NCBI GenBank assembly: GCA_017640665.1
Contig: JAEPQE010000002.1
Coordinates: 868,001 to 932,000, forward strand
Origin: Balneolaceae bacterium
Lineage (GTDB): Bacteria > Bacteroidota > Rhodothermia > Balneolales > Balneolaceae
Length of the DNA stretch: 64,000 bases
Reading direction: 5' to 3'
Made by a program: the position numbers and the translations under genes. Each line of letters begins with the position of its first letter. Position 1 is the stretch's first letter. Below, piece after piece: positions 26,618 through 50,634 of this stretch. Under the pieces are notes generated by a model. That model saw only the letters and a program-made list of their open reading frames with translations. It was not told the origin of the DNA and did not search any database.

Positions 26618-29461
26618 ATGATCCGTATACTACATTTACTTCTTCTTTTACTTGCGTTCGAATCGAGTCTTTGTTTTGGTCAACTGAGTTTTCAAATCAG
26701 TAATTACGAAAAACCGGTAGATGGAGCAGGTAACCAGAATTGGGATATTTCCAGTGATGGAGATCAACGTATTTTTATTGCCAATAACTATGGTTTGTTG
26801 GTTTTAAAAAACACCAATGCTCAACTTTTTGGGACACAGCGACAAACCATATTCAGATCGGTAGCTTTTTTAGATAACCGCATCTACACCGGCTCTTTTG
26901 AAGATTTTGGATACTGGGCACCTGATAATAATGAAGGTTTAAAATACACATCACTTGCGGCCCGACTTGATAATCCGGATATGAATAACGACGCCATCTG
27001 GAAAATTGTCAAGCATGAAGGTAATATCTATTTTCACAGTTTTGGGTCAATCTACGGATTTGATGGAGAAAACGTATTCCGTTTAAGTACGTCTGGTACA
27101 TATATGTTTCTCTATAAAATTGAGGATAAGGTATACACTCAGAGAGTGGGGAACGGTCTCTTTACATTAGAGGGAAATGAATTTATACCTATTGAGGGGA
27201 GCGGTTTTCTTGAGAATGAAGAAATACGGTCATTAATTAAACTTCGCGATGGAAATTTAATGATTGCTTCAACAGATGGACTCTACCGCTTTGATGGAAA
27301 TAACTTTAGCGAACTGAACTTTGAAGGGTCCGAAGAATTAATTCAAAATGAAGTAAACGTTATTACTCAAACTCCGGATAAGATTATTATAGGCACTATT
27401 CTTAATGGCTTATATATTTTTGATCAGGATTTCAATTTACTTGAGAACATTACTACCGACGATCAACTTGAAAACGACACCATCTTATCTCTTGAAGCAG
27501 ATGATTTTGGAAATATTTGGGTCGGTATGGATCGAGGACTCGCATATATTGCATTTGATACCCCCCTGCAAAACTACACTGGTTCGAATAACGATATTGG
27601 CAGTGTGTATGCAGCCTCATTGTTTGAAAACGAACTTTACATTGGTACTAATCAAGGAATTTATTGGTACAAGAAAGATTCAAATGGAAATTTCTTTGAC
27701 CGAAAACTGATCCCGGGTTCTCAGGGGCAAGTTTGGTTCCTGGAAAAATTTGATGGGAAGCTCTATGGTGGGTTAAATGATGGAACCTACCTAATCAGTG
27801 ATAAATCTCTTTCAAAAGTAAGTGATATATCTGGAGGATATACGTTAAAATCTTACCCACAAAATAACCAGGATGTGCTTTTACAGAGCACTTACAGCGA
27901 TTTAGTTGTTTACAAAAAAGTACAAAACAGATGGCAACAATCTCATACTCTATCGGGGTTTCGTACACCTGCCCGGTTTATGGAATTTGACCACCTGGGC
28001 AATATTTGGCTGGGGCATACTGTAAAAGGTATTTACCAACTTCAACCCGATATATCTCTGACCACAATCAATAATATTTGGGAGCCGGGTTCAGAAGCCG
28101 GGTTAGTAGAGAGTACTAATCGTGTATTTAAATTTGATGGAAGGATTTTTACTTCGTTTTCGGATTCTTTGTATGAATGGGATCACGTGAACAAAACCTT
28201 TATTACTTACTCGGGACTGGATCCTTTTTTTACAACATCCGGGACTATAAAAAACATTCTACCTGCCGGAAACCATCGATATTGGGTGATCAAAGATTCT
28301 GAAATAAATTTGTTTGAAATACATTTTAATTCGGTAAAGCTTCTTTATACGCTGATTCCCGGAATGTATGGATTAGAGATGGTTGAGGGATATGAAAGTA
28401 TTATTCAAATTGATGATGATATTCATTTAATTAGCCTTGATGATGGGTTTGTAGTTTTAGACCTGGATAAGATAAACCGATCGAAGTACCCTCGATCTGA
28501 TGTTGAAATCGAATCTCTTATAGCCTCTAATGCAAATGGGAATCAATTAGAGATACGATCTGAACTCTCTTCAAAAGAATATGCTCTATCCAATTCATAC
28601 AGTAATATCTCTCTCTCCTGGTCCTCAACTCAAACAGTAGGAAATCAGGCCTTCTTCCAATATAAACTCAATGGACTCAATACAGACTGGAGCGACTGGT
28701 CACCAGAAAATAGCACTCGGTTTGAGCGTCTTCTGCCCGGATCTTATACATTCCAGGTACGATCTATTGGTGCCAATGGGGTAATAACCGATACCACCAA
28801 TGTGTTTTTTACGATTGGCCTTCCATGGTATCTTACTAAGGGAGCTTATTTATTTTATTTATTGATTGCCCTTTCACTCGCTTTTATGATCCGGTTATAT
28901 ATTTCCAGAAAACAATGGCGAAAACTTGGTAAAGAACTTGAAGAGAAGCATAAAAAAGCCCAACGGGATCGGGAAAAAGCCGAAAAGGAAATTATTAAGC
29001 TCACTAATGAAAAACTTCAGAATGAAATTGAACACAAATCAGCTCAATTAGCATCAAATACTATGGCTATGATGCGAAAGAACAACCTGCTCACTTCTCT
29101 TAAGGAAGAGCTTGACAGGCAAAAGAAAGAACTTGGTAAAAAGATGCCTTCAAGCTATTACAACAAAATCAATAAACTTATAGAACAAGGGATTGAAGAC
29201 GAACATGAATGGGAAGTTTTTGAACAATTATATGATCAGGCACATGGTGACTTCTTTAAAAGACTTAAGGAAAAACATCCGCAACTTACCCCAAGCGATT
29301 TAAGACTCTGCGCCTACCTGCGAATGAATCTCTCTTCCAAAGAAATTGCTCCACTACTTAATATTTCAGTTCGTGGTGTGGAAGAACGCAGATACCGACT
29401 TAGAAAAAGGCTTGATATTTCTACCGATGTAAACCTTACTGAATTGATTATGACGTTTTAG
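26618..29461 (+). CDS. Membrane-tethered propeller / Y_Y_Y / LuxR-type regulator
   Basis: A 947-residue one-protein sensor-regulator. Signal peptide (1-22), a long periplasmic part of two-component-regulator propeller repeats (for example LIKLRDGNLMIASTDGLYRF and LEADDFGNIWVGMDRGLAYI), a Y_Y_Y domain (about 660-735, FQYKLNGLNTDWSDWS...GSYTFQVRS), one TM helix (about 744-766), a cytoplasmic coiled coil (about 770-850) and a C-terminal LuxR-type helix-turn-helix (about 900-937, NLSSKEIAPLLNISVRGVEERR). There is no kinase or receiver domain, so signal passes directly from periplasm to DNA. Such proteins often control glycan loci; a role for the nearby PUL is inferred only from proximity. Confidence 0.88.
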   Translation: MIRILHLLLLLLAFESSLCFGQLSFQISNYEKPVDGAGNQNWDISSDGDQRIFIANNYGLLVLKNTNAQLFGTQRQTIFRSVAFLDNRIYTGSFEDFGYWAPDNNEGLKYTSLAARLDNPDMNNDAIWKIVKHEGNIYFHSFGSIYGFDGENVFRLSTSGTYMFLYKIEDKVYTQRVGNGLFTLEGNEFIPIEGSGFLENEEIRSLIKLRDGNLMIASTDGLYRFDGNNFSELNFEGSEELIQNEVNVITQTPDKIIIGTILNGLYIFDQDFNLLENITTDDQLENDTILSLEADDFGNIWVGMDRGLAYIAFDTPLQNYTGSNNDIGSVYAASLFENELYIGTNQGIYWYKKDSNGNFFDRKLIPGSQGQVWFLEKFDGKLYGGLNDGTYLISDKSLSKVSDISGGYTLKSYPQNNQDVLLQSTYSDLVVYKKVQNRWQQSHTLSGFRTPARFMEFDHLGNIWLGHTVKGIYQLQPDISLTTINNIWEPGSEAGLVESTNRVFKFDGRIFTSFSDSLYEWDHVNKTFITYSGLDPFFTTSGTIKNILPAGNHRYWVIKDSEINLFEIHFNSVKLLYTLIPGMYGLEMVEGYESIIQIDDDIHLISLDDGFVVLDLDKINRSKYPRSDVEIESLIASNANGNQLEIRSELSSKEYALSNSYSNISLSWSSTQTVGNQAFFQYKLNGLNTDWSDWSPENSTRFERLLPGSYTFQVRSIGANGVITDTTNVFFTIGLPWYLTKGAYLFYLLIALSLAFMIRLYISRKQWRKLGKELEEKHKKAQRDREKAEKEIIKLTNEKLQNEIEHKSAQLASNTMAMMRKNNLLTSLKEELDRQKKELGKKMPSSYYNKINKLIEQGIEDEHEWEVFEQLYDQAHGDFFKRLKEKHPQLTPSDLRLCAYLRMNLSSKEIAPLLNISVRGVEERRYRLRKRLDISTDVNLTELIMTF

Positions 29462-29677: not shown

Positions 29678-29752
29678 CAAGAACAACGTTTCTATAAGTA
29701 ACTCCTACTACTTCTTTTGTAAGGACATCCCTCTTCGATGGTCTTACCTGGT

Positions 29753-30043
29753 ATGGCTAATACCTATTATGTATATATCCTTAGCAATTACTCCAAAATG
29801 CTCTATGTTGAGGTCACTAACGATCTGGAACGTAGAGTAAATGAGCATAAAAAGAAACTTTGTAAAGGATATACCAGAAAATACAACCTCCATCAACTGG
29901 TGTATTACGAGGAAACTGATGACATAAGAAGGGCAATAGAGCGGGAGAAACAACTCAAAGGATGGAGAAGGGAAAAGAAAACAGAACTCATTGAAGGGAT
30001 CAACCCTGGCTGGAAAGATCTGGCTGAAGGTTGGTATTCTTAA
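29753..30043 (+). CDS. GIY-YIG nuclease-family protein with altered YIG motif
   Basis: A 96-residue single-domain protein of the UvrC/UPF0213 GIY-YIG superfamily: YYVYILSN (about 4-11) as the GIY part, LERRVNEHKKK with the conserved Arg, and AIEREKQLKGWRREKK with the conserved metal-binding Glu. The second motif, normally Y-I/V-G, reads YVEVTNDLERR, so the glycine is replaced by glutamate. This may weaken or abolish cleavage. I chose the ATG at 29753; an ATG at 29738 would add five residues. It is the only gene within the 62-bp inverted termini. Confidence 0.85.
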   Translation: MANTYYVYILSNYSKMLYVEVTNDLERRVNEHKKKLCKGYTRKYNLHQLVYYEETDDIRRAIEREKQLKGWRREKKTELIEGINPGWKDLAEGWYS

Positions 30044-30253: not shown

Positions 30254-31717
30254 TCATTCAATCTGTTTTTCATCGGCTTGCCAATTAAATCTTCTTACAG
30301 GAATGTTCATAGCATTCTCTTTTTCCATCACATCAAAAAGTCGGCTTCTCATTTCGTTTCTTAGTTCTATAAATCCCGGTACTTCAGCTAAGTTGTACCT
30401 CTCATCCGGGTCGTTTTCTAAATCATATAATTCATCTCTATCCCAAACTCCGTGATAGTAAATGTATTTGTACCGGTCTCCGCGAAGTGAAAACGTGGTA
30501 GGAGTATGAGGAAAAGCTGGTTCCCAATAGTATTCATATAAAAATTCTCTGTCGACTGTAGCTTCCTGATTTTTTAAAACAGGAAGAAATGAGAAGCCAT
30601 CCATATCTATCGTGCTTTCGGCCTCTAATACATCCAGAATAGTCGGAGCTACATCAATATTCCGAACAAGTTTATCCACACTGGTACCAGCTTCCAGGTA
30701 GCCCGGAGCCCAGGCAATCATGGGAACCCGAATTGATTCTTCGTAGGCATTTCTTTTATCGATAAGGCCATGCTCTCCATGCATAAAGCCATTATCTCCC
30801 ATATAAATAACGAGCGTGTTTTCATCTAAGCCGGATTCCACTAAATAATCAAGGATTCTTCCAACACTTTCATCTAAAGCCAGCAACGTTTCCAGATAAC
30901 TTTCATAAAACTCTTCAAAGTTCATGTCTCCATGATATGCGTAGTCTACCCCGTGCCAGCTGTTTCTCTGTGCCCTTACCCATTTGGGTTTAGTGCGGTA
31001 ATTGCGTTCAGTTTTATCCATGGTTTCAGGATATTCTATATCAATTTCACTGTATTCCCCTTTATGCCTTTCAGCTGGAATAAACTCAGCATGTACTGCT
31101 TTATGCGAAAGATAGAGGAAGAAAGGCTCTTCAGATTCTCCATTTCGTTCTTTCAGCCAATCAACAGCGAAATCGGTCAAAATATCGGAAGTATATCCGG
31201 TGTAGTTGTCTCTTTTTCCATCCACATTCAGTATTGGGTTCTGGTAAACTCCCTGACCTCTGAAGCTTACCCAATGATCCCAGCCTGACTTTGGATCATC
31301 TACACTTTCTCCCATGTGCCATTTCCCAATGAACGCAGTTTTGTATCCAGCCTTTTGTACATCTTCATTAAAAAAGCGGGTACCTCCGGGAATCGGACTC
31401 GTATTATCCACAATTTTATGAGTATGTGCATATTGGCCCGTTAAAATCGACGCTCTGCTGGGAGAACATAACGAAGTGGTAACAAAAGCGTTTTTAATAT
31501 GCACTCCTTCACCCGCCATCCTGTCCAGATTAGGAGTTTTTATGTATGAGGGAGCATCAGGGTGAAACCCCATAAAGTCGAATCTATGATCATCACTCAA
31601 TATAAATACGACATTCTGAGGTTCGTTATCCTGGGCTTTTACCGGAGTTATTAAAATCAAAACACCCAGCAGGATGATTGAAAAAACTTTGAAATTAATT
31701 TTTAGTTGATGCATCAT
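30254..31717 (-). CDS. Cys-type sulfatase (type I, S1 family)
   Basis: A 487-residue exported enzyme (signal about 1-29, ending TPVKAQ). The alkaline-phosphatase-superfamily metal site is visible at VVFILSDDHRFD (Asp42, Asp43). The formylglycine motif CSPSRASILTG has the catalytic Cys84, so maturation by an FGE or anSME is needed. IYMGDNGFMHGEHG (Asp/Asn metal ligands) and a DUF4976-type C-terminus (YYHGVWDRDELYDLENDPDE) complete the S1 sulfatase layout. Its maturase homologue is the next gene upstream, 20 bases away. As the last gene of the PUL it suggests that the glycan carries sulfate; the cleaved position is unknown. Confidence 0.93.
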   Translation of the reverse strand: MMHQLKINFKVFSIILLGVLILITPVKAQDNEPQNVVFILSDDHRFDFMGFHPDAPSYIKTPNLDRMAGEGVHIKNAFVTTSLCSPSRASILTGQYAHTHKIVDNTSPIPGGTRFFNEDVQKAGYKTAFIGKWHMGESVDDPKSGWDHWVSFRGQGVYQNPILNVDGKRDNYTGYTSDILTDFAVDWLKERNGESEEPFFLYLSHKAVHAEFIPAERHKGEYSEIDIEYPETMDKTERNYRTKPKWVRAQRNSWHGVDYAYHGDMNFEEFYESYLETLLALDESVGRILDYLVESGLDENTLVIYMGDNGFMHGEHGLIDKRNAYEESIRVPMIAWAPGYLEAGTSVDKLVRNIDVAPTILDVLEAESTIDMDGFSFLPVLKNQEATVDREFLYEYYWEPAFPHTPTTFSLRGDRYKYIYYHGVWDRDELYDLENDPDERYNLAEVPGFIELRNEMRSRLFDVMEKENAMNIPVRRFNWQADEKQIE

Positions 31718-31737
31718 AGTATCGATTAAATTATTGA

Positions 31738-32598
31738 TCAGTATTGCACATCTTTAACTGTTCTAAAACCCATGTTAAATGTAGCACTCTCTTTTGAATT
31801 GAACTGCCGGGCACTTACCCGGTAACCATGGCAATAGTCTTCGTGACATAAAAATGAGCCACCTCGTATTACTTTCTGAGCAGAATCGATGCTAAACATA
31901 TAGAATGCTGGATTACCTTCGTAAGGTTTATATGTGTCTGATGTCCATTCCCATACATTACCACCCATATCAGTTAGTCCTGCTTGTGTTTCCCCAAATT
32001 CACCAACCGGAGAAGTGTACAGAAAGTTATCTTCATTTGTATTTTCAACCGGAAAATCTCCCTGCCAGGTGTTCGCTTTAAACATTCCGGCTGTTTTCAA
32101 TTGATCTCCCCAACTATATTTGTTTCCCGAATCCTTTCCACCTTTGGCAGCATATTCCCATTCTATTTCAGTTGGCAGCCGTTTACCAGCCCACTTTGCA
32201 TAAGCATTTGCATCGTTCCAACTAACCTGGGTTACAGGATGATCATCCCCGGAACTATCTTCATTTTCTCCGTGAGGGTGTTTCCAATTGGCTCCTTTTT
32301 CTAAAACCCATCTACCTGTAGCAAAATCCAAAACTCCTGAATCTCCAAATTTTTCGGCTTCAGTAACATATCCCGTTGCCTGAACAAATTTCCTGAATTC
32401 AGCTACTGTAACCGGACTTTTATCAATAAAAAAAGGGGGTACCTTAGTTTTAAATGATGGTGTCTCATTGGGCATACCATGTTCTGAACCTATCGTAATT
32501 TCACCACCCTCAAAGTAAATCATACCTTCTAACTCGTCCACTTTCTGTATTGTACATGCCATCCAAAAAGTAACAGATAAGAAAAGAAGGTACTTCAT
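31738..32598 (-). CDS. Formylglycine-generating enzyme (FGE/SUMF1) predicted lipoprotein
   Basis: A 286-residue protein starting at the ATG at 32598, just after the upstream stop, with a lipobox (MKYLLFLSVTFWMAC, Cys15). The FGE-sulfatase fold is complete: EGMIYFEGGEITIGSE, VTVAEFRKFVQATGYVTEAE, PVTQVSWNDANAYAKWAGKRLPTE in two parts, GNVWEWTSD and the catalytic RGGSFLCHEDYCHGYR with Cys251 and Cys256. Both copper-binding cysteines are present, so I expect a true maturase and not a C-type lectin-like relative. Its predicted periplasmic lipoprotein location, next to the sulfatase, is unusual since most bacterial FGEs are cytosolic. Confidence 0.92.
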   Translation of the reverse strand: MKYLLFLSVTFWMACTIQKVDELEGMIYFEGGEITIGSEHGMPNETPSFKTKVPPFFIDKSPVTVAEFRKFVQATGYVTEAEKFGDSGVLDFATGRWVLEKGANWKHPHGENEDSSGDDHPVTQVSWNDANAYAKWAGKRLPTEIEWEYAAKGGKDSGNKYSWGDQLKTAGMFKANTWQGDFPVENTNEDNFLYTSPVGEFGETQAGLTDMGGNVWEWTSDTYKPYEGNPAFYMFSIDSAQKVIRGGSFLCHEDYCHGYRVSARQFNSKESATFNMGFRTVKDVQY

Positions 32599-32602
32599 CG
32601 CT

Positions 32603-33940
32603 TTATTGTTCAATTGTAAACCCAAGTTTTTTCAATCCGGCTTGTACCTCAGGTGCACTCATAAAAAGTTCCCATAATAAACCTGAACGGTAGTTCTCAA
32701 TCATTACAGGAATCGGACCCTGATCAATCGCAAGATACCTCGGTAAGTACCAATCGTTTTCAGGGCTAAATGCATCGTAAGGTCCAAATTCTCCTATTAG
32801 AGTGTCTGCTTCAGTGGTATAAAGAAACTTCAGAAATTTCATACTTTCTTCGGGTGTATATGGAAAGCTGGATAAAGCCGCTGTTGGAGAAATAACTCCC
32901 AGATCTTTATCCGGACGATGCCCCGAATATCCTTTCATAGAATAACTGGATGTCAATCCCCAAACACTATCTCCGTAGGCTTCAAACCCTTCGGGATTAT
33001 CCACACTGTATGCATGATGTATTTTTGCATGATTCTGATTCAGTTTCCAATAGTCTCCATATTGATCTTTCAAACCTTTAGGATTGAGCCCTAAATAAGA
33101 ATAATGTGCCCAAAAAAGCGGACCTACCGGAGCATCATCTGTATCATAATGATCGAGAATGGTTTTGTATCCATAAAATTCTCTATCCGTACTTATTACT
33201 CCACCTTTAGCCCAACCTTCATGGTAAACGGCTGGATCAATTGGATAAGTTGGAGATGAAGCAGCAAGTACATACATAATCAATGCTTCGTTATAACCAC
33301 GAACAGCAAAATTCATCCTCCAATCATGGTTTGGAGACCAATGCCAGTACAACACATTCTCTCCTCCTTTTGTATGCCAGTTCCATTCGACGGTTTCCCA
33401 TATTGCATTAATGCGGCGAACTAACTCCTGCTCTTTTTCATTTCCATCGATAAAGTATTGGCGAACTGTTAACAAACCTTGTATCAAAAACGCAGTTTCA
33501 ACTAAATCCCCACCATTATCATACCTACTGAATGCTTTTGTTTTTCCAGTATCTCCATACCACCAATGCGGATATACGCCATGAAAGCGGTCGGCTGTCT
33601 CAAGGAAAGTCAGAATTTTATCGTATCGCTCAACGGCTTCCTCTCTGGTAATGAAACCTCGTTCAATACCAACCAGAATAGCCATTACGCCAAAACCGGA
33701 CCCTCCGGAAGTAACCACATTCTTATCATTTTGAGGATAGATTCCATCCATGTGAGTCCGTTCCGGAGCCATCCCTGAAACTGGTTCCGCATTATCCCAG
33801 AAATACTGGAAGGTTTGGTACTGAACTTTAGTAAGAAGAGCGTCATCTTCTGACTCAGCAGTATTTTTTTTATTTGCCTGATTGGAGGAGCATGCTGCAC
33901 TTAGTAATAATGCAGATAAAACGAGTATTCGATTTCTCAT
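32603..33940 (-). CDS. GH144-type beta-1,2-glucanase/sophorosidase lipoprotein
   Basis: A 445-residue predicted lipoprotein from the ATG at 33940 (MRNRILVLSALLLSAAC). The rest is a single glucoamylase-like (alpha/alpha)6 domain of PF10091/GH144: VQYQTFQYFWDNAEPVSGMAPER, GGSGFGVMAILVGIERGFI, DRFHGVYPHW, LYWHWSPNHDW, RGYNEALIMYVLAASSP and AIDQGPIPVMIENYRSGLLW. Characterised GH144 enzymes cleave beta-1,2-glucan (endo-glucanase) or release sophorose. It sits between the GH3 gene and the FGE gene. It differs from the second GH144 protein in lacking Ig-like domains, so the two may divide endo and exo roles. Confidence 0.88.
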   Translation of the reverse strand: MRNRILVLSALLLSAACSSNQANKKNTAESEDDALLTKVQYQTFQYFWDNAEPVSGMAPERTHMDGIYPQNDKNVVTSGGSGFGVMAILVGIERGFITREEAVERYDKILTFLETADRFHGVYPHWWYGDTGKTKAFSRYDNGGDLVETAFLIQGLLTVRQYFIDGNEKEQELVRRINAIWETVEWNWHTKGGENVLYWHWSPNHDWRMNFAVRGYNEALIMYVLAASSPTYPIDPAVYHEGWAKGGVISTDREFYGYKTILDHYDTDDAPVGPLFWAHYSYLGLNPKGLKDQYGDYWKLNQNHAKIHHAYSVDNPEGFEAYGDSVWGLTSSYSMKGYSGHRPDKDLGVISPTAALSSFPYTPEESMKFLKFLYTTEADTLIGEFGPYDAFSPENDWYLPRYLAIDQGPIPVMIENYRSGLLWELFMSAPEVQAGLKKLGFTIEQ

Positions 33941-33972
33941 TGTTATTTTTAGTAGTTTTAGAATTATCAATT

Positions 33973-36279
33973 TCACTTTTCCCAAATCACACTTTGGCTT
34001 TGAACTTCATCTGAATTTCTTCCTACCATGATGATAAATTCCCCTGGTTCCCAGTCATATTTCATTGATTGGGCCATATTTTCGTAATCGTAGTTGTAAA
34101 ACTTTAAATCATCGGTAGTAATTGAAAATGAAACTGTTTTAGTAGTTCCTGCAGGTATAAACACCTTTTGAAAATCTTTTAGCTCTTTTACCGGACGGGT
34201 TATTGTTCCAACTACATCCCTGATATAAAGTTGAACCACTTCTTTTCCATCTGTTTCGCTTTCATTCGTAATGTTGATTGTTACGCTAAGCGATTCCTCC
34301 CCTTTTAAGGATGTTTTATTAAGGGTCATCTCCCCATACTTAAACTCACTGTAGCTTAAACCATAACCGAATGGAAACAAAGGCTCGTTAGAAACATCCA
34401 GATAGTTAGTCCGAAACTTCTGAAACCATTCTCCCTCAAGTGGACGCCCTGTATTTTTATGAGCGTAATAAATTGGAATTTGCCCAACGTTCTGAGGAAA
34501 AGTAGCGGTAAGCTTTCCCGAAGGATTGACATCTCCAAATAAGACATCCGCGATAGCGTAACCAGCCTCGCTACCCGCAAACCAAGCGTTTAAGATAGAG
34601 GGAACATATTCGGCTTCCCATGTTAATGCCAGCGGCCGACCGGTAAACAAAACCATTGCAACTGGTTTTCCTGTATCGAGTAATGCTTTCAATAGTCGTC
34701 TTTGTGTGTCCGGCATTTCTATATTAGTTCTGCTGGAACTTTCCCCGGACATTTCTGAAGCCTCGCCCACCGCTGCTATAATCACATCTGCCTTTTCGGC
34801 AATTTCGAGTGCTTCAGCAAGTATTTCTTCTTCCGGTCTGTTATCCCGGTATGTGTTCTTTCCAAAAATGCTGAATCGTGCTTCAAGTTCCGGATCACTT
34901 ACGAAGTTTGCTCCTTTAGCATAAAGCACATTAACGTTTTCGCCTGCAACCTCTTTTACTCCTTCCAGAAGAGTTATAGACTTTTGATGATCGCCCGCTA
35001 CGCTCCATGTTCCCTGCATGTTTTCTCTGTTATTCCCCATTGGACCAATAATCGCGATGGTCCCTTCCTTTTTAAGTGGCAAAATGTCGCCTTCATTCTT
35101 AAGTAACACCATCGATTCTGCCGCAATTTTTCGAGCTGCATTACGATTTGAATCGGTATAAACCTCCCTTCTCGCCCGATCCGGTTGGGCATAACGATAA
35201 GGATCATCAAATAGCCCCAGCTTGAATTTAGCCTCTAGTATTCTCCAGCAGGCTTTATTGATGTCCTCTTCAGTGATTTTTCCTTCTTCGAGTGATTTTT
35301 TAAGCGTAAGCAGGAAACCCTCGCCAACCATATCCATGTCAACTCCTGCTTTTAGTGCAAGAGCAGATACTGCTTCGAGGTCTCCAACACCGTGATCAAT
35401 CATCTCATTAATTCCTGTATAGTCACTAAGTACAAATCCATCAAAACCCCATTGATTTCTGAGCACCTCTGTCATCAGCCATTTATTTCCGGTTGCAGGA
35501 ATACCATCTACTTCGTTAAAAGATGCCATTACCGTTCCTACTCCTGCATCAATCGCTGCTTTATAGGGAGGAAAGTACACATTGTACATGGTCAGCCGAC
35601 TCATATCTACTGTATTATAATCCCGACCTGCTTCAGATGCCCCATACAATGCAAAGTGCTTCACACAGGCCATCAATGTATTTTCTTTAGAAAGATCATC
35701 TCCCTGATATCCATTAACCATTGCCTTTGCAATTTCGCTGTTTAGATATGGATCCTCCCCACCGCTTTCAGCTATTCTTCCCCAGCGAGGATCTCTGGAA
35801 AGATCAACCATTGGAGAGAATGTCCATGCGATGCCATCAGCTGAAGCTTCCTGGGCTGCAATTCTTGCTGACCGTTCTACTGCTTCTATATCCCAGGAGC
35901 AAGACAACCCCAATGGAATTGGAAATACGGTTTTATATCCATGTATTACGTCCATCGCGAAGAGAAGTGGAATACCTAAACGAGATTCTTCAACTGCCAC
36001 CTTCTGGACTTCCCTGATCCTTTCTACACCTCGAATGTTAAATAATCCACCAACCTTTCCTTCCTTAATTTTAGCAATTATTCCAGTGCTTTGAGCCAGA
36101 CCTGTACTTATATCTCCGGCAGCAGGAAGATTTAACTGTCCAATTTTTTCATCAAGCGTCATTAGTGCCAAAACAGAATCTACCTTTTGCTCTATTTTAA
36201 CTGATGAGTACTGAGCACTTATTGATGAACTGACTGACAAAAGTATTAGGGTTATTATTACAGTTATGACAGGTCGCAT
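33973..36279 (-). CDS. Glycoside hydrolase family 3 beta-glucosidase
   Basis: A 768-residue exported enzyme from the ATG at 36279 (AGAAGG upstream; signal peptide 1-23). The GH3 N-terminal TIM barrel has KHF and the nucleophile Asp286 in GFVLSDYTG; the alpha/beta sandwich has GEASEMSGESSSR with probable acid/base Glu513; a fibronectin type III-like domain ends the protein (EVVQLYIRDVVGTITRPVKELK). This is the BglX/periplasmic beta-glucosidase layout. Together with two GH144 enzymes it would hydrolyse sophoro-oligosaccharides to glucose in the periplasm. Exact linkage preference cannot be read from sequence. Confidence 0.94.
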   Translation of the reverse strand: MRPVITVIITLILLSVSSSISAQYSSVKIEQKVDSVLALMTLDEKIGQLNLPAAGDISTGLAQSTGIIAKIKEGKVGGLFNIRGVERIREVQKVAVEESRLGIPLLFAMDVIHGYKTVFPIPLGLSCSWDIEAVERSARIAAQEASADGIAWTFSPMVDLSRDPRWGRIAESGGEDPYLNSEIAKAMVNGYQGDDLSKENTLMACVKHFALYGASEAGRDYNTVDMSRLTMYNVYFPPYKAAIDAGVGTVMASFNEVDGIPATGNKWLMTEVLRNQWGFDGFVLSDYTGINEMIDHGVGDLEAVSALALKAGVDMDMVGEGFLLTLKKSLEEGKITEEDINKACWRILEAKFKLGLFDDPYRYAQPDRARREVYTDSNRNAARKIAAESMVLLKNEGDILPLKKEGTIAIIGPMGNNRENMQGTWSVAGDHQKSITLLEGVKEVAGENVNVLYAKGANFVSDPELEARFSIFGKNTYRDNRPEEEILAEALEIAEKADVIIAAVGEASEMSGESSSRTNIEMPDTQRRLLKALLDTGKPVAMVLFTGRPLALTWEAEYVPSILNAWFAGSEAGYAIADVLFGDVNPSGKLTATFPQNVGQIPIYYAHKNTGRPLEGEWFQKFRTNYLDVSNEPLFPFGYGLSYSEFKYGEMTLNKTSLKGEESLSVTINITNESETDGKEVVQLYIRDVVGTITRPVKELKDFQKVFIPAGTTKTVSFSITTDDLKFYNYDYENMAQSMKYDWEPGEFIIMVGRNSDEVQSQSVIWEK

Positions 36280-36307
36280 ACTATGTACCTTCTTTTGGTT
36301 AATTCGT

Positions 36308-38284
36308 TTATTCATAAGTAAAGCCCAAATTGTCCAAAGCGATCTGAACCTCAGGAGCCTGCATAAAAAGGTCCCATAACAATCCAGTTCTGTGGTTTTC
36401 AATCATAATGATAATCGGCCCCTGATCTATTGCCAATGTTGAACTTGCCCACCAACTTTCGGTAGGATTGAACGCGTCATAAAAACCATATTCGCCCCAC
36501 AATTTATCTCCTAAGGCATAGTAAAAATGATGCAAGGCTTCCATTGATTCGTCAGGGGTGTAAGGCATTGAAGAAAGTGCAGCGGTAGGAGTAATAGTAC
36601 CATTATCATTAGTTGGAGAATGAGCACTATAGCCCCCGTTTTGATCGCTGGCCGTTAATCCCCAACTTTCTTGCGAATACCCGACGAAACCTCTTGGATT
36701 CTCAATGCCGTGGGCTCTGTTTATCAGAGTATGATTTATATTCTGCTGCCAGTAGTCAGCATATTGATCCGAAAGGTTACGTGGATCTAATCCCAGAAAA
36801 GAATAGTGTGCAAAAAAGAGCGGGCCTCCAAAATCATACCCTACGGGTAACTCGATTCCATAATAACTATTCCCGTTTTCAATTGCTCCTGAACGAGCCC
36901 ACCCGTTATCATAAACTTCTTTATCAATAGCATAATCTTTAGATGAAGCGGCCAGTACATAAATAATCAAGGCTTCGTTATAGCCTCTGATCGGTAAGTT
37001 CATGTCCCATTCAAATTCCGGAGACCAATGCCAGTACAGCACATCCTGTCCTTCTTGTGTGAACCAGTCCCATTCTATAGAATCGAGCAACTCGTTAATT
37101 TTGGTGATCAACTCTTCTTCTGCTGTAATTGTATCATCAAGATATTCCCGCACCGTAATAAGTGCTTGTGCCATAAACGCTGTCTCAACTAAATCTGCAC
37201 CATTATCTTTGGCGCTGAATGGAATTACATCTCCGGTTGTACCGCTCATCCAATGCGGCCATACTCCATGAAACCGATCCGCATTTTCTAAAAAACTTAT
37301 GATGGTTTGAAGCCTGGTAATCCCTTCTTCTTTTGTTATAAAATCCCTCTCAATTCCAACCAGAATAGACATCACACCAAAACCACTTCCGCCTATTGTT
37401 ACAAGATCGCCTGAGCTATTTCTTTCTCTTGCAAGCCCGCTTACCGGATGCCCAAAATCCCAGAAATACTTAAATGTTTGTTCCTGTACTTTTGTAAGAA
37501 GTTCTTCGTCGGATATTAAAGGGAATTTCGGAGTTGGATCTAATCCTGTTTGAAACAAGGTCTCATAACCTTCAAATTCGAACCCATTTGCAGCTGTTAA
37601 ACTATTGCTCAATCTAAGAGTGAAATTCTTATAGTAATCCAGCGGCGAATCTGCTATAATATTTACTTTTGTGCTATCCTGAGATAATGTTTTTTCAAAA
37701 AGTGAAGAAGAAGTAATCGAAAAAAAGGATTCAAAATTCTGTGGATCCAGTGCTTCTGAAAAAGTAAATTCAATATCGACATTGTCGTATTCCACATCTC
37801 TTTTGGTGTTACCCGCAGATAAATTCTCCTCATTGATAGTAGCGGAAATTAACTGTAATACTCCATTTTCTGTGGTCAGGTTGTAGTCAATCCCTGGAAA
37901 ACCTGCCCCTTGCTCAGATGTCAACCCATCAGTAACAGAAAGCACATAATCAGTATTATATGATAATTCGTTTGAGGGCTCAGCGATTACTTTTTTGTTC
38001 TCATCTTCAAAACTAAAACTAAGTGATAGCTGTGAATTCGTTTCCGTTTTACGTAAAAGAATATTCTCCTCAACAATATCAGTATTAACAGGAGAGCTAA
38101 ATTGAAAAGTGAAAATTGCTCGCCTGCCTACGCCCTGATTTACTGAGTTGAAAGAAAGAGTACCGTCTTGAGTGGATGTCTTCAATAATTGAAAAATATC
38201 TGGTTCTGGTTCTACTCCTTTATCTTTGCAGCCCGTAAAAAAAACAAGAACCAATAAATAGTATATCATTCTACTCATATTCAT
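36308..38284 (-). CDS. GH144-type glucanase lipoprotein with two Ig-like domains
   Basis: A 658-residue predicted lipoprotein (lipobox VFFTGC, Cys19). Residues about 28-137 and 142-247 form two bacterial Ig-like domains of the SbsA/Big_5 type (NTDIVEENILLRK, ELSYNTDYVLSVTDGLTS). From about 258 there is a full GH144/PF10091 domain: LLTKVQEQTFKYFWDFGHPVSG, GGSGFGVMSILVGIERDFI, DRFHGVWPHWM, LYWHWSPEFEWDM, RGYNEALIIYVLAASS and LAIDQGPIIIMIENHRTGLLW. The Ig domains probably hold the enzyme away from the outer membrane. It starts just after a strong hairpin and is therefore the first gene of the enzyme part of the PUL. Confidence 0.88.
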   Translation of the reverse strand: MNMSRMIYYLLVLVFFTGCKDKGVEPEPDIFQLLKTSTQDGTLSFNSVNQGVGRRAIFTFQFSSPVNTDIVEENILLRKTETNSQLSLSFSFEDENKKVIAEPSNELSYNTDYVLSVTDGLTSEQGAGFPGIDYNLTTENGVLQLISATINEENLSAGNTKRDVEYDNVDIEFTFSEALDPQNFESFFSITSSSLFEKTLSQDSTKVNIIADSPLDYYKNFTLRLSNSLTAANGFEFEGYETLFQTGLDPTPKFPLISDEELLTKVQEQTFKYFWDFGHPVSGLARERNSSGDLVTIGGSGFGVMSILVGIERDFITKEEGITRLQTIISFLENADRFHGVWPHWMSGTTGDVIPFSAKDNGADLVETAFMAQALITVREYLDDTITAEEELITKINELLDSIEWDWFTQEGQDVLYWHWSPEFEWDMNLPIRGYNEALIIYVLAASSKDYAIDKEVYDNGWARSGAIENGNSYYGIELPVGYDFGGPLFFAHYSFLGLDPRNLSDQYADYWQQNINHTLINRAHGIENPRGFVGYSQESWGLTASDQNGGYSAHSPTNDNGTITPTAALSSMPYTPDESMEALHHFYYALGDKLWGEYGFYDAFNPTESWWASSTLAIDQGPIIIMIENHRTGLLWDLFMQAPEVQIALDNLGFTYE

Positions 38285-38391
38285 TTGGTTGCAAAGTTCA
38301 GGGGGATTTTTCTAATTATTAACTTTTGAAAATCAGTCGGGTGTTAAGCCTTATATTTTTCAAGACTTCCTGTAGCACTACTATAGATTAA

Positions 38392-38417
38392 AAAGAGGTG
38401 CCATAAAGCACCTCTTT
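38392..38417 (-). terminator. Intrinsic terminator / hairpin inside the PUL
   Basis: On the minus strand a perfect 10-bp stem AAAGAGGTGC/GCACCTCTTT encloses a 6-base loop and runs into a T-rich tail (CTTTTTAATC). It lies 17 bases after the stop of the LamG lipoprotein gene and 108 bases before the second GH144 gene, splitting susC-susD-LamG from the enzyme genes. Confidence 0.82.
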
Positions 38418-38433
38418 CATAACTTTCATACGA

Positions 38434-39705
38434 CTAGTTTTCAGAGTCGTACATTAACTGGATTTCCGTATCAGTAAGTACTTTGTGATAGATCTTGATA
38501 TCGTCTAACTGTCCTTTAAAGTGGTTTGCAGTTGTGTTGTCATATCCACCCCAAGGAGTATCATCCCACATGGTACCTGCACGAGAATGAACAAACCCTA
38601 ATGCTAGTTCATTTACCACATCTGGTTCTGATCCGGCATAGATCATACCAACGGTAGTCTTCTTTGGAGCATCATCTGGCCATAGGTCAAAATCAAAACT
38701 TTTCATCAACTCGCTGTTGTAGTAAAGTCGACCTTTCTTATCAGCACCTTCATAGGTATAAGTTATCTGAGTCCAGTTATCTTTCAAATAACCTTCCATC
38801 TGCTCCTGAGTTATGCTCTTAGCAAAATCCCAACCTTGCCAGCCGCCGTTGGTATTATCAGTAGCTTCAACCGGGAACCACATATCTTCAGCTCCGGTAG
38901 TGCCATCTCCGAATTCGTACTGTATGGCAAACTTGGCTCCATTATATCCTCCAAAGACCTCAAATTGAAGACCAAAGAATGCGCCCAGCCCCATTACAAA
39001 ATGACCTGCAGGATCTCCGTTTGCATTTACGTGCCCATCAGAATTGGTTTTCATCCAAAAGCTGATAGTAAAATCACTTGTGTTTACAAGAGCATCTGCT
39101 CCAGGAATTTCAATGATGCTGGTATTTCCATTAAAAGTAGCAGCTTTTCCTGCAGCTGCGTTTCTACTATCTGTATATGTAATATCTACTACTGCACTGG
39201 CTGAAGGATCGTAGTCTCCAACGATATCTTCAGCAGTATCCTCAAACGTCCAGTTAGCAATCATTCCTGAAGGACTAAAAGTGCCCGCAGTAGTGAATGT
39301 CCTTGTTGTAGAAGTAAGAGGCTGATCATCCATATTCAATAATCCCATAGAAATAGAGAATGAATAAAGGGTTCCTGAACCAAGTGTAGTGGCAGGAGTA
39401 ACTGTTAACATAGGTCCGTCAACTTCGATGGTTAGCTCGATATTTGCCTGATCATAATCCTGAACCAGTGTAATATTGCTGGAAGTTGCTGTTTCCGGCT
39501 TAATGTCGGAATTAAATGTAATAGTGATACTGGCATCGGCAGCCACATCTGATGGGGAAGTTGCTCCATTAAGATCAGCTCCACCAACTGTTATTGACTC
39601 AATGTTCAGGTCAACCGGACCATTATCATTATCACATCCCTGTGCTACGAAAACTGCTAACGTAAGCACCAAAGTGTACTTAAAAATTGTATTTATCTTT
39701 TTCAT
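38434..39705 (-). CDS. PUL surface lipoprotein: Ig-like plus LamG/concanavalin-like domain
   Basis: A 423-residue predicted lipoprotein (signal ending VFVAQGC). Residues about 30-135 are a Big_5-like domain (ADASITITFNSDIKPETATSSNITL, ...LGSGTLYSFSI). Residues about 145-420 form a LamG/concanavalin A-like lectin domain: WTFEDTAEDIVGDYDPSASA, NGNTSIIEIPGADALVNTSDFTISFWMK, and GQLDDIKIYHKVLTDTEIQ. No glycosidase residues are apparent. Its place directly after susD suggests a surface glycan-binding protein, as in many Bacteroidota PULs. The intact terminator directly after it marks the end of the binding/import transcript. Confidence 0.85.
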   Translation of the reverse strand: MKKINTIFKYTLVLTLAVFVAQGCDNDNGPVDLNIESITVGGADLNGATSPSDVAADASITITFNSDIKPETATSSNITLVQDYDQANIELTIEVDGPMLTVTPATTLGSGTLYSFSISMGLLNMDDQPLTSTTRTFTTAGTFSPSGMIANWTFEDTAEDIVGDYDPSASAVVDITYTDSRNAAAGKAATFNGNTSIIEIPGADALVNTSDFTISFWMKTNSDGHVNANGDPAGHFVMGLGAFFGLQFEVFGGYNGAKFAIQYEFGDGTTGAEDMWFPVEATDNTNGGWQGWDFAKSITQEQMEGYLKDNWTQITYTYEGADKKGRLYYNSELMKSFDFDLWPDDAPKKTTVGMIYAGSEPDVVNELALGFVHSRAGTMWDDTPWGGYDNTTANHFKGQLDDIKIYHKVLTDTEIQLMYDSEN

Positions 39706-39744
39706 GATTGATTGTTTTGTTTGAGGGTTAATACTTTTTATGAT

Positions 39745-41220
39745 TTACCACATGTCGTTTTGTTCAAGCGAACCTTGAGACAAATCTATTTCGCTTTGAG
39801 GTATTGGAAAGAACTCATGCTTTCCTTCTATGAAGCCCAAAGGTCCTAGTACTTCTGGTGCTCTACCTGTTCGTACTAAATCCCAAAACCTGTGGCCTTC
39901 AAGAGCAAGTTCCACTCTTCTTTCATGCAAAATGATATCTCTTAACAAATCTTTATCTGTTTCTGCTATATCCGGAAGAATTGAACCATCACCCTGACGA
40001 GCCCTTTCCCGAACTCTGTTTAAATAAACCAGGGCCTGTACGGGTTGATCATTTTCATTTAGAGCTTCAGCGGCCATTAATAAAACATCTGCAAACCGAA
40101 CGAGTCTTCGGTTATGCCCCCATTGTGTAGTTGTATTTGTTCCGGGATACCAAACTTTCTGGTTGTAACTTTCAATCTCAATTAAGTTACCACCTTCATC
40201 TCTGGTCTCATCAGGTGTGGATCCATCACCTAAAATGGTGATACCGTCAAGAACCTCTCCAAGTTCGATAATGGTATCTTCAAAACGTGGATCATCAGTT
40301 TCAAAAGTGGCACGTAAATCCATTGAAGGGCGATTGAACCCCCACCCTCTGTTTGGTGTACCACGAACTCCCTGAGTATTAGCATATTGATTTCCTTCCG
40401 GACTCCCGCTGGCTATGGCTCCAATTTCAAAAACCGATTCTACACCATGCTCTCCATTTACACCATTGGCATCAATAAAAACATCTTCAAGATCGTATTC
40501 ATTTGAATTAATGACTGCCAGTGACAGAGTCTCAACCTCATCAAATTCCCCTTTGAATAGGTGAACCCGGGCTTTCAAAGCCTGCGCTGCCCCCTTAGTT
40601 CCACGCCCCAACTGGTCTACTGAATATTCACTTTTAAGAGGGAGATTATCTATAGCAAATTGCAGGTCTGCTTCTAGAAGAGTATAGATTTCTTCTGCTG
40701 TTGATCTTTCTAATTTAAGATCAGGGTTGATCGTAGTTACCAGAGGCACTCCGCCAAAAGCACGAACCAGATCAAAATAATAAATTCCCCTCAGGAATCT
40801 GGCTTCTGCAATGTATCTGGTCTTTAGGGTTTCGTCCATTTCGATCTCTGGGACCTTTTCGATAACAATATTAGCTCGTCGGATTCCCTCATAAAGAGCA
40901 TTCCACCATCTGTCCAGTCCTGTTTGAGTAGCAGCAAAACTAAAGTCTTCAAATGGAGCCATCGAAGTAGATCCATCATCAGGATTACTTCCTTTTAGTC
41001 CATCATCCGACATCACATCAAGAACGGGAAAACCACCACTGTGGTAATGCCAGCTTCTCAGGGTGGAATACACCGCGTTAGTTGCTTGTAAAGCATCCGA
41101 AGCAGAAGTTGGAAAGGCCTCTTGTGTTAGTTCACTTTGAGGTCGTACATCTAGAAATCCTTCACAAGAAATAAGGATTAAACTTATGGATAGAATTAGT
41201 ATCGTTTTTTTAGTACTCAT
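39745..41220 (-). CDS. SusD/RagB-like nutrient-binding outer-membrane lipoprotein
   Basis: A 491-residue protein from the ATG at 41220 (MSTKKTILILSISLILISC lipobox). It has the SusD-like N-terminal domain and TPR scaffold (RYIAEARFLRGIYYFDLVRAFGGVPLV) and the typical C-terminal RLVRFADVLLMAAEALNE...YLNRVRERA, then ERRVELALEGHRFWDLVRTG and FFPIPQSEID. In known systems SusD caps the SusC channel and binds oligosaccharides at the cell surface. It begins 10 bases after the susC stop, the usual order. Naming is by family; the ligand is inferred from the GH144/GH3 enzymes downstream. Confidence 0.95.
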   Translation of the reverse strand: MSTKKTILILSISLILISCEGFLDVRPQSELTQEAFPTSASDALQATNAVYSTLRSWHYHSGGFPVLDVMSDDGLKGSNPDDGSTSMAPFEDFSFAATQTGLDRWWNALYEGIRRANIVIEKVPEIEMDETLKTRYIAEARFLRGIYYFDLVRAFGGVPLVTTINPDLKLERSTAEEIYTLLEADLQFAIDNLPLKSEYSVDQLGRGTKGAAQALKARVHLFKGEFDEVETLSLAVINSNEYDLEDVFIDANGVNGEHGVESVFEIGAIASGSPEGNQYANTQGVRGTPNRGWGFNRPSMDLRATFETDDPRFEDTIIELGEVLDGITILGDGSTPDETRDEGGNLIEIESYNQKVWYPGTNTTTQWGHNRRLVRFADVLLMAAEALNENDQPVQALVYLNRVRERARQGDGSILPDIAETDKDLLRDIILHERRVELALEGHRFWDLVRTGRAPEVLGPLGFIEGKHEFFPIPQSEIDLSQGSLEQNDMW

Positions 41221-41230
41221 TGCTCTTACC

Positions 41231-44200
41231 TTAAAATGTCGTGTTAAATCCAATTGAGATAACTCTTGGAATAGGATAAATACCTGTATCTATACCATTT
41301 GATAGTACATTTCCACTTCCAATCTCGGGGGTATAACCGGTATATTTTGCCCAGGTTAGTAGATTCGTAGCTTTTATATAAAACCTTGCGCGGTCTATAT
41401 CCAAACGCTCAAGCAATGATGTAGGAAGGCTATACCCCAGTATCAAACTTCGCAAACGAATGTAGCTTCCATCTTGAATGAAACGGTCTGATGGAAGGAA
41501 ATTATACCCTCCATAACTTGGCCTTGGTTCAGAATTTGAAGTTCCTTCACCGGTCCAACGATTCCATACGTGCTGCTCAAAGTTATATGGATCAGGCCGG
41601 ACAACATTCTTTCCATTGAATATTTCATTCCCATATTGCCCCTGAAAGTCAAAGGACATATCCCAATTTCTGAAATTCAGTGAAAAATTTGCACCAAATA
41701 CTAAATCAGGTGTTGGAGATCCTATATAAGTGCGGTCATCTCCATTAATCCTGCCATCCCCATTGGTATCCACAAAGCGAAGATCCCCAACATCTGCCTG
41801 AGATAAGTGAGGATAAGCGTCCAACTCAGCTTGATTCTGGAAAATTCCATCCGTTACATATCCATAAAAGGCTCCGATTGGAAGCCCAACTCTGGATTGG
41901 GTTACCAGTTGACCATTAGCAAGCGCACCCCCGAACAGGACTGAGTCAATGCCGCTATTTCCACCAATTGCAAGCACTTCGTTATGGATAGTATTGCCTA
42001 CAACATCGATCTCATATCCTACTTCACCGATGTTGTCCTCCCAACCCATTGAGAATTCTATTCCCCGGTTTACTACAGAAGCGGCATTGTACCGGATTCT
42101 CTGTCCTTGTCCATTTCCAAGATGCCCGGGAGTCGAAAGTTCAACAAGGATGTCATCGGTTTCCCGATTATAATAATCTAATTCCGCAGAAAGTCGTCCC
42201 TCAAAAACTGTCATTTCTAAACCGATATCGGTTTGTGTGGTAGTCTCCCATTTCAAATCTTCATTTCCAGACTTCCCATAGGTTGCTGCAATGTATGAGG
42301 CATCGGGGCTTCCGAATACTGCAAGCAGCCCCGAATTTACACGAGAGAATCGGTCGTAATAAGTAATTTTTTCATTTCCGATAATTCCCCAACTAGCGCG
42401 AAGTTTCAAGTTAGAAATGAAAGAAACCTCTTCCATAAACTTTTCTCTATCTATGTTCCAACCCAGAGCAAAAGAAGGGAAATAGCCCCACCGATTTTCT
42501 TCAGCAAATTTTGAAGACCCATCTCTTCTCATTGTGATGGTAGTGGTGTACTTGTCATCATAACTATATACCACGCGACCGAGAAAAGAAATCATATTGT
42601 AATACTGACCAGCATCAACACCATTAAAAATGGAATTCAGCTGGTTAATATTATTAGCTTCGTCTACAATATAAGATGGAAGCACGTACCAGAAGTCTTC
42701 ACCATCACGAATTACATTCTCACCTGATAACCTGATTATCTCCGATCTGGTTTGCTGCATGGTAAGTCCTGCAACAGCATTTACCGAATGTTTACCAAAA
42801 TCCTGAATATAGTTAGCTGTGTTCTCCCACAACCAGGTATAGTTATAGGTTTCCCCTTTAAAAATATCACTGAAATCGTTGTTTTGCTGAGAAGCTGTCC
42901 CATCGGGATTAAAGATGGTGAAGGCAGGTGTAAAATTCTCGGCTCTATTGATAGCACCATCTATTCCAAAACTGGTTTTTAATAATAATGTATTCGCGAT
43001 AATTCCTTCTGCATATACATTTCCTACTGCCCGTACGCCACGGTTATAGTTGTTTGAAAAATCAATGCTCGCGAGAGGGTTACCTACATTAAAAACCACT
43101 CCGTAGCTACCATCATCATAAAATGGCTCTAAAACCGGTTGAGCCCTGTATACTGCAAAAGTTGCGTTAGGGGCAATTCTTTGGGTGTAAGGAGAAACAG
43201 TAATGTTATTTCCTACCTTAAAGTCCTTACTGATCTTATAGGTATTGTTCAGTTTCAGCGAAATACGCTCATACTCAGAGCTCTCAATAATACCTTCTTG
43301 TTGAAAATATCCCAGACTTATATAGTAGTCTCCCCGCTCACTGGCACCACTCACTGAAATCTGATGATTCTGAATAAGTGCTGTACGAAAGACTTCGTCC
43401 TGCCAGTCGGTATCGGGTACTGCATCAACATTATTATAACTTCCTGAGCGAATTTCGTTTGCAATAATTGCAAATTGCCGTCCATTCAGAAGATCAATTT
43501 TTTTCTCTAATTGTTGTATTCCCGATTCACTTGAAACGAAGATTTGAGGGCGATCACCAATGCCAGACCCTGACCTTGTTTGAACTAATACAACTCCATT
43601 AGCCCCTCGTGATCCATATATAGCAGTTGCTGATGCATCCTTTAACACCTCCATTGATTCAATATCGCCAGGGTTTAAAAAAGAAATGTCATCTATAATC
43701 ACTCCATCCACTACATATATAGGAGATGAATTGTTGAAGGTACCTACTCCTCTTATTCTTACTGCTGCAGATGCCCCGGGCGCTCCTGAAGTGGTAGTAA
43801 TTTGAACGCCACTTACTTTGCCCTGAAGCGATTGCTCTGCATTTAAACTCGTTACTTTACCCAGATCTTCTGAGCTAACTCTCCCAATTGAGCCAGTAAC
43901 ATCTCTTTTACGTACAGCTCCATATCCAATTACAACAAGTTCATCTAGTGTCCCAACTACCGTTTCCAGTTCTACAGTAATTTCAGATTGTCCGGTTACA
44001 TCAACTTCTTTCGTTTGAAAACCTAAGAAGGAAAAGACCAGAATATTTTCTCCTTCATTTAATCGAAGAGTAAAATAGCCATCAACATTTGTAGAAGTTC
44101 CTCTGGAAGTGCCTTTAATAACGATATTAACTCCCGGTAATGTCTCCATTGTTTCGGCATCATAAACAGTCCCGCTTACCTGAGTTTGGGCCTGTGACGC

Positions 44201-44302
44201 AACACTAAAAAATGATACGAATACAATGCTTAACAGAGCGACTCCGAGGGCTTTAAGAATTGCTTTTCCGGGTAATGGCTTGATGGTTTGGATGTATTTC
44301 AT
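41231..44302 (-). CDS. SusC/RagA-like TonB-linked outer-membrane transporter
   Basis: A 1023-residue protein. Signal peptide (about 1-38), CarboxypepD_reg-like domain (about 40-115, SGTVYDAETMETLPGVNIVIKG), the SusC plug (about 120-235) with VIGYGAVRKRDVTGSI, SLQGKVSGVQITTTSGAPGA, VRIRGVGTFNNSSPIYVVDGV and ATAIYGSRGANGVVLVQT, then a 22-strand-size barrel ending in PRVISIGFNTTF with a terminal Phe. It is first in the minus-strand PUL transcript. Together with SusD it should import oligosaccharides in a TonB-dependent way. Confidence 0.95.
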   Translation of the reverse strand: MKYIQTIKPLPGKAILKALGVALLSIVFVSFFSVASQAQTQVSGTVYDAETMETLPGVNIVIKGTSRGTSTNVDGYFTLRLNEGENILVFSFLGFQTKEVDVTGQSEITVELETVVGTLDELVVIGYGAVRKRDVTGSIGRVSSEDLGKVTSLNAEQSLQGKVSGVQITTTSGAPGASAAVRIRGVGTFNNSSPIYVVDGVIIDDISFLNPGDIESMEVLKDASATAIYGSRGANGVVLVQTRSGSGIGDRPQIFVSSESGIQQLEKKIDLLNGRQFAIIANEIRSGSYNNVDAVPDTDWQDEVFRTALIQNHQISVSGASERGDYYISLGYFQQEGIIESSEYERISLKLNNTYKISKDFKVGNNITVSPYTQRIAPNATFAVYRAQPVLEPFYDDGSYGVVFNVGNPLASIDFSNNYNRGVRAVGNVYAEGIIANTLLLKTSFGIDGAINRAENFTPAFTIFNPDGTASQQNNDFSDIFKGETYNYTWLWENTANYIQDFGKHSVNAVAGLTMQQTRSEIIRLSGENVIRDGEDFWYVLPSYIVDEANNINQLNSIFNGVDAGQYYNMISFLGRVVYSYDDKYTTTITMRRDGSSKFAEENRWGYFPSFALGWNIDREKFMEEVSFISNLKLRASWGIIGNEKITYYDRFSRVNSGLLAVFGSPDASYIAATYGKSGNEDLKWETTTQTDIGLEMTVFEGRLSAELDYYNRETDDILVELSTPGHLGNGQGQRIRYNAASVVNRGIEFSMGWEDNIGEVGYEIDVVGNTIHNEVLAIGGNSGIDSVLFGGALANGQLVTQSRVGLPIGAFYGYVTDGIFQNQAELDAYPHLSQADVGDLRFVDTNGDGRINGDDRTYIGSPTPDLVFGANFSLNFRNWDMSFDFQGQYGNEIFNGKNVVRPDPYNFEQHVWNRWTGEGTSNSEPRPSYGGYNFLPSDRFIQDGSYIRLRSLILGYSLPTSLLERLDIDRARFYIKATNLLTWAKYTGYTPEIGSGNVLSNGIDTGIYPIPRVISIGFNTTF

Positions 44303-46116: not shown

Positions 46117-46148
46117 TAACGAAGGATTTTGAACCTATACATCACCAG

Positions 46149-49100: not shown

Positions 49101-49202
49101 CTTGAAGAGCTCAACGTTCGTCCGCGTACTTCTTATGTAGCAAAATTAACCAACCCGAATCCGGCATTGGTAGACGAAACTAAAATGGAACCTGCCCACT
49201 AA
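46149..49202 (+). CDS. actB: Alternative complex III subunit ActB (Fe-S / molybdopterin-like)
   Basis: A 1017-residue protein fusing a molybdopterin-oxidoreductase-like domain and an iron-sulfur domain. The N-terminus carries a Tat-variant signal ([21 protein letters not shown]). Residues about 60-740 form the molybdopterin-like part, which in this family binds no Mo cofactor. From 777 there are four cysteine clusters: [41 protein letters not shown] and CTYCVQRV...CQQACP, fitting three [4Fe-4S] and one [3Fe-4S]. In the known complex ActB conducts electrons from ActC/F to ActA. Its stop overlaps the actC start (TAATG). Confidence 0.95.
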
Positions 49203-50629: not shown

Positions 50630-50634
50630 AGAAT

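Follow-up and report, generated by a model that had tools for sequence, protein, structure and literature searches.

The window, by which we mean the whole stretch of 64,000 nucleotides analyzed here, comes from a Balneolaceae genome of 3.8 Mb (G000). At positions 30254–44302, its minus strand carries a single co-directional set of eight genes, transcribed in the order susC, susD, a Big_5/Laminin_G_3 lipoprotein gene, GH144a, GH3, GH144b, FGE (the maturase), and a sulfatase gene. These genes, the codon of the expected formylglycine residue, and a linked regulator are located as follows.

41231–44302 (−): SusC/RagA TonB-dependent outer membrane transporter, 1023 aa (TIGR04056, 840.5 bits; cut-off, 368)
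39745–41220 (−): SusD-like surface lipoprotein (PF07980, 114.9 bits; PF14322, 92.8 bits)
38434–39705 (−): putative surface glycan-binding lipoprotein with Big_5 and Laminin_G_3 domains (Pfam)
36308–38284 (−): GH144a, lipoprotein with N-terminal Big_5 domains (PF10091, 256 bits)
33973–36279 (−): exported GH3 beta-glucosidase of the BglX type (NF011678 BglX, 892.5 bits; cut-off, 666)
32603–33940 (−): GH144b, lipoprotein (PF10091, 258 bits)
31738–32598 (−): FGE with a lipoprotein-like signal and both active-site cysteines (PF03781, 247 bits)
30254–31717 (−): S1-type formylglycine sulfatase, 487 aa, with a signal peptide and no lipobox (PF00884, 198.5 bits)
31466–31468 (−): codon of Cys84 (CSPSR), the expected formylglycine residue, conserved in all 26 aligned homologues
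26618–29461 (+): linked sensor-regulator with a Reg_prop propeller, Y_Y_Y, a transmembrane helix recognized by eye, and a weak C-terminal HTH

The genes named in the original prediction (two GH144 genes, GH3, a Cys-type sulfatase, FGE, and susC) were all found by Pfam on the minus strand, exactly where they had been placed. The locus combines a susC/susD pair with co-directional CAZyme genes, the arrangement that defines a polysaccharide utilization locus (PUL) in Bacteroidota, and the only glycosidases detected in it with Pfam were GH144 and GH3. The SusC protein contains plug and CarboxypepD_reg domains (Pfam). Several of the listed open reading frames began with TTG and were too long, and ATG starts were set at the signal peptides instead; for susD, the ATG at 41220 was chosen, which gives a lipobox ending in LILISC. 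With the ATG starts, the intergenic gaps are 10, 39, 149, 28, 32, 4, and 20 bp, a layout that would fit a single transcript. Scans for promoters (31 promoter-like sites versus 41 expected) and terminators (14 terminator-like sites versus 11.6 expected) were uninformative.

The sensor-like regulator of 947 aa, which was absent from the original prediction, is convergent to the locus. At its C-terminus, matches to GerE (16.4 bits) and Sigma70_r4_2 (19.9 bits) were both below the cut-off. We counted it as part of the system because, of 44 related genomes, 10 have homologues scoring >300 bits within the stretches fetched from them. Between the regulator and the sulfatase, positions 29738–30043 (+) encode a small GIY-YIG protein (PF01541, 47.8 bits). 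In a sister species, a gene directly downstream of the sulfatase (L039:5138–5968) encodes a protein with TIR_2 and Mrr_cat domains, which is likely to function in anti-phage defence.

The two GH144 proteins of the locus, the only ones found in the genome, exceed the PF10091 cut-off and are homologous to GH144 enzymes over their full length. GH144b matched an endo-beta-1,2-glucanase structure (PDB 5gzh) with 591 bits, the alignment extending across 425 residues (32–456); 5gzh and 5gzk are the GH144 endo-beta-1,2-glucanase of Chitinophaga, the founding work on which is not known to have considered a sulfatase. GH144a matched PDB 4gl3 (545 bits) and the same endo-beta-1,2-glucanase, 5gzh (506 bits), and the GH3 protein matched PDB 3u48 (1171 bits) and 5xxl (1068 bits). 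In a tree of 153 GH144 rows, 33 of which came from sulfatase loci and to which some loci contributed two rows, GH144b fell within a 13-row clade with full support, in which 9 rows came from loci that have one or other type of sulfatase; GH144a was placed among 20 rows, 4 of which were from sulfatase loci. From these counts, the second GH144 protein, GH144b, tends to accompany the sulfatase.

No PF00884 protein other than the sulfatase was found in the genome. The enzyme is of the Cys type (motif LCSPSRA), with the C-X-P-S-R signature and the metal and catalytic residues of S1 formylglycine sulfatases: D42, D43, C84, R88, G94, H209, D308, N309, and K321 are invariant in all 26 aligned relatives, the nucleophile, catalytic, and metal residues having been mapped from the list in PMC6388578. 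In an AlphaFold model (pLDDT 81, pTM 0.86), the best Foldseek matches were S1_11 carbohydrate 6-O-sulfatases (BT3177, BT4656, and BuS1_11), and the best PDB sequence match in phmmer was also S1_11 (266 bits, versus 133 bits for phosphonate monoester hydrolases). However, the identity to these S1_11 enzymes is about 30%, and an S1_25 module is equal in fold, the VIA fold scores placing S1_25 (Z 43.5) level with S1_11 (42.6 and 42.4) and phosphonate monoester hydrolases at Z 35.6. Moreover, the context of the S1_11 enzymes is GlcNAc or L-galactose, whereas that of the window sulfatase is a glucan. In the PDB sequence alignment, H404 and the two residues flanking K321 (D320 and R322) would fit the S1_11 triad, but H404 is replaced by Q or A in other members. 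The His and Asp/Arg of this triad hold O3 and O4 (PMC10154612).

The FGE contains a PF03781 domain and both of the active-site cysteines (RGGSFLCHEDYCHGYR; CHEDYC), a pair that is the hallmark of the enzyme. Four PF03781 proteins (five rows) were found in the genome, and only the one in the locus has the two-Cys site; the anaerobic maturase model TIGR03942 had no match in this genome. The original prediction took the FGE as a further sign of a decorated glycan. It does lie in the locus, but an FGE beside a Cys-type sulfatase is expected in any aerobe, so its presence alone carries no information on the glycan. The window FGE belongs to a clade of five (support 100/100), all of them in GH144 loci. 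No sulfatase was found beside the other four, its closest relatives (G052, G057, G059, and G064), in the stretches seen (L060, L063, L068, and L070), and these four genomes carry sulfatases elsewhere. With a home-made lipobox rule, a lipoprotein-like signal such as that of the window FGE was called in 22 of the 33 two-Cys FGEs examined, so export seems to be common in this group, and the exported FGEs would act in the periplasm. In G026, whose sulfatase orthologue is also of the Cys type (L052:14474–15940), neither a two-Cys FGE nor an anaerobic maturase was found. The ulvan system of Formosa agariphila is similar in that its sulfatases were activated by a co-expressed FGE of the same organism, although the polysaccharide is a different one (PMC8511951). 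Further sulfatase–FGE pairs without GH144 were seen at L138:9230–11825 (G039) and L139:9361–11927 (G038), and the pairs suggest that sulfatase and FGE travel as units.

To describe the linkage from the GH144 side, we surveyed 58 stretches from 44 Balneolales genomes, leaving out long cyclic-glucan-synthase frames, and, more widely, one GH144 locus from each of 40 genomes of other orders of the phylum. Neighbouring genes were identified from phmmer scores against the window proteins, an approach that can overlook distant sulfatases, and many of the fetched stretches stop at contig ends, so all counts of absence are upper bounds. Within the order, a sulfatase was present in the GH144 loci of five genomes (G011, G017, G026, G034, and G039) and absent from those of up to 39 of the 44. 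Three of the five (G039, G026, and G034) had orthologues of the window sulfatase (76–87% identity), that of G034 being split across two contigs, one of which ends beside GH144b while the other runs on to the regulator; the sulfatases of G011 and G017 were of a different type. The sulfatase locus of G011, from the same family group, matches that of Fodinibius roseus DSM 21986 exactly. Outside the order, 7 of the 40 GH144 loci contained a sulfatase, and up to 33 lacked one; the enzyme belonged to the window type in G155 and G276 (751 and 745 bits) and to the other type in the remaining five loci (249–288 bits). One member of the other type shared 34% identity with the window sulfatase and was likewise of the Cys type. 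Because most GH144 loci lack a sulfatase, the core pathway would not need desulfation. Furthermore, 19 of the 44 Balneolales genomes had orthologues of the glycan-binding protein scoring >450 bits in the GH144 loci fetched, and only 3 of these 19 had the window-type sulfatase, indicating that the sulfatase is probably an accessory on a core that functions without it.

In the reverse direction, GH144 and GH3 adjoin 6 of the best 80 sulfatase homologues in named genomes. The six are from two Gammaproteobacteria, Exilibacterium tricleocarpae and Lysobacter chinensis (both 65% identical), together with a Great Salt Lake MAG (GSL.Bin8), Marinoscillum furvescens (L170), a Saprospiraceae MAG, and a Bacteroidia MAG. 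The gene order varies among the sulfatase–GH144 loci. In Lysobacter, GH144, GH3, the sulfatase, and FGE are consecutive, whereas in G155 the order is GH144–GH144–FGE–GH3–sulfatase; the complete set is thus found in at least three lineages. When GH144 linkage was mapped as a label on a tree of 104 sulfatase rows, it required 5 changes, versus a mean of 10.6 after shuffling, and none of 500 shuffles was as low, the shuffles ignoring the relatedness of near-copies. In a paralogue control, none of 10 loci of the closest paralogous sulfatases (55–62% identity) from the same bacterial family contained GH144. In both G000 and G026, the sole sulfatase found is co-located with GH144. This genomic evidence indicates that the sulfatase does not adjoin the GH144 genes by coincidence. 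The 55–62% identical sulfatases were also considered as a clue to the substrate and proved unhelpful, the one context annotated in detail (L133) containing a UDP-glucose dehydrogenase, a 3-keto-disaccharide hydrolase, and GFO/IDH/MocA proteins.

A second candidate decoration-removing enzyme recurs at other GH144 loci. An EEP-family Exo_endo_phos protein (PF03372; L070:10361–11395), which resembles a solved mannosyl-6-phosphatase, was found in or beside the GH144 loci of L070, L068, L060, L063, L064, L074, L055, L092, L084, L294, L310, L311, L285, L300, and L147. It adjoins FGE in G059, G064, and G052, and partly in G057. No Balneolales stretch was seen with both EEP and a sulfatase, and the two occur together in Lysobacter and in L294, L310, and L311 of the phylum sample. 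This distribution would be compatible with beta-1,2-glucans that bear either phosphate or sulfate.

Taken together, these features make it fairly probable that the locus is a PUL for a sulfate-bearing beta-1,2-glucan. The original prediction had proposed a sulfated or otherwise decorated glucan, and it is strengthened by the persistent linkage of the sulfatase to GH144 and GH3 in distantly related bacteria with varying gene orders and by the finding of no other sulfatase in this genome; the backbone and the sulfate themselves we infer from the enzymes encoded. The surface proteins and GH144a would bind and cut the polymer outside the cell, SusCD would take in the oligosaccharides, and GH144b would trim them after import. 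In the periplasm, the lipoprotein FGE would oxidize Cys84 of the Sec-exported sulfatase to formylglycine, and the sulfatase would then strip the sulfate, perhaps from O6 (a weak guess from the S1_11-like fold of the model), thereby unblocking the chain, from which GH3 would release glucose. The periplasmic sensor-regulator would turn the locus on. The sulfatase and GH144b, here also with FGE, look like an accessory module, as relatives keep the PUL core without it. We know of no naturally sulfated beta-1,2-glucan, and none was found in our literature search.

Alternatively, the substrate may be a mixed sulfated marine polysaccharide, in which GH144 and GH3 cut beta-1,2-gluco-linkages while the sulfatase acts on a different sugar. 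S1_25 and S1_11 relatives do act on other sugars, by their descriptions, and extra open reading frames are present in the L210 and L170 loci, those of L210 encoding a GH43-like and two esterase-like proteins. In addition, a GH144 homologue lies in a PUL with Bxy_22780, a beta-1,2-galactosidase inactive on beta-1,2-gluco-oligosaccharides (PMC11739564). However, the restriction of the window locus to GH144 and GH3, the closeness of GH144b to a solved endo-beta-1,2-glucanase, and the recurrence of the glucan-only enzyme set across many sulfatase loci make such a glycan unlikely. It is less likely still that the S1 enzyme acts on an anionic ester other than sulfate, for instance on phosphodiester groups attached to osmoregulated periplasmic beta-1,2-glucans. 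These periplasmic glucans carry charged substituents (phosphoglycerol and succinyl), and the recurrence of the EEP sugar-phosphatase-like protein at other GH144 loci makes a phosphate decoration plausible. Formylglycine enzymes of SulfAtlas S1_0 are known as phosphonate monoester hydrolases and phosphodiesterases (PMC5066984). Nevertheless, carbohydrate sulfatases outscored phosphonate monoester hydrolases both in fold (Z about 42 versus 35.6) and in sequence, and every published sulfatase catalytic residue is kept. That the sulfatase and FGE are passengers with an unrelated substrate beside an ordinary beta-1,2-glucan PUL is very improbable: most GH144 loci do lack both, and the pair lies at the promoter-distal end, beside the GIY-YIG frame in the window or the TIR/Mrr gene in the sister species, as at an insertion site, but the co-location of sole sulfatases with GH144, the recurrence of the linkage, in altered gene orders, among distant phyla, and the paralogue control all argue against it.

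The sulfate-bearing beta-1,2-glucan that we favour as substrate has a precedent in the literature. Lapebie et al. 2019 (PMC6499787) described a gain of a sulfatase in marine GH144 PULs and proposed an unknown sulfated counterpart of the terrestrial glucan, the same inference as ours, so the central idea of the original prediction had already been published as a hypothesis. The cluster of Maribacter dokdonensis 62-1 (PMC8072126) likewise combines GH3, two GH144 genes, susCD, and a sulfatase, and the window locus shares with these marine Bacteroidota PULs the presence of SusCD, GH144, GH3, and a sulfatase in one locus. Unlike the window locus, which has its own maturase, these descriptions (PMC6499787 and PMC8072126) mention no FGE in the parts available, and they cover Bacteroidota, whereas the window sulfatase type recurs in Gammaproteobacteria. 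Among open-access titles and abstracts, in which subscription papers are largely missing, we found no published experimental test of the hypothesis. What appears to be new here is the in-operon maturase with a GH144-specific FGE lineage, the spread of the sulfatase–GH144 association to Gammaproteobacteria, the related GH144 copy common to sulfatase loci, and the recurrent sugar-phosphatase at other GH144 loci.

If the proposal is true, saline waters contain a sulfated beta-1,2-glucan that feeds unrelated bacteria but has never been isolated. With its only detected sulfatase and its own maturase in the locus, the window's genome offers a clean system for finding this glycan. More tentatively, natural beta-1,2-glucans of saline habitats may commonly be anionic, either sulfated or phosphorylated, with bacteria of at least two phyla having exchangeable decoration-removing modules round a constant GH144–GH3 core; these modules would be the sulfatase, alone or accompanied by an FGE lineage of its own, the EEP sugar-phosphatase, and esterases. 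The sulfated glucan could then be a major polymer whose chemistry has yet to be described, perhaps a cyclic or periplasmic glucan of bacteria. When open reading frames were clustered and their N-termini inspected by eye in 20 neighbourhoods of the PF10091 proteins of about 2900 aa, no conserved sulfotransferase-like neighbour was evident. These neighbourhoods (L252–L271) contain the cyclic-glucan-synthase-like genes of relatives, with a regulator-like gene of about 385 aa downstream in 18 of 20 and a gene of about 890 aa, perhaps encoding a P-type ATPase, in 14 of 20, both identities being judged by eye. In the window itself, the locus is adjoined at positions 45472–52213 (+) by multihaem cytochrome, Fe-S, and NrfD genes, a set that resembles alternative complex III.
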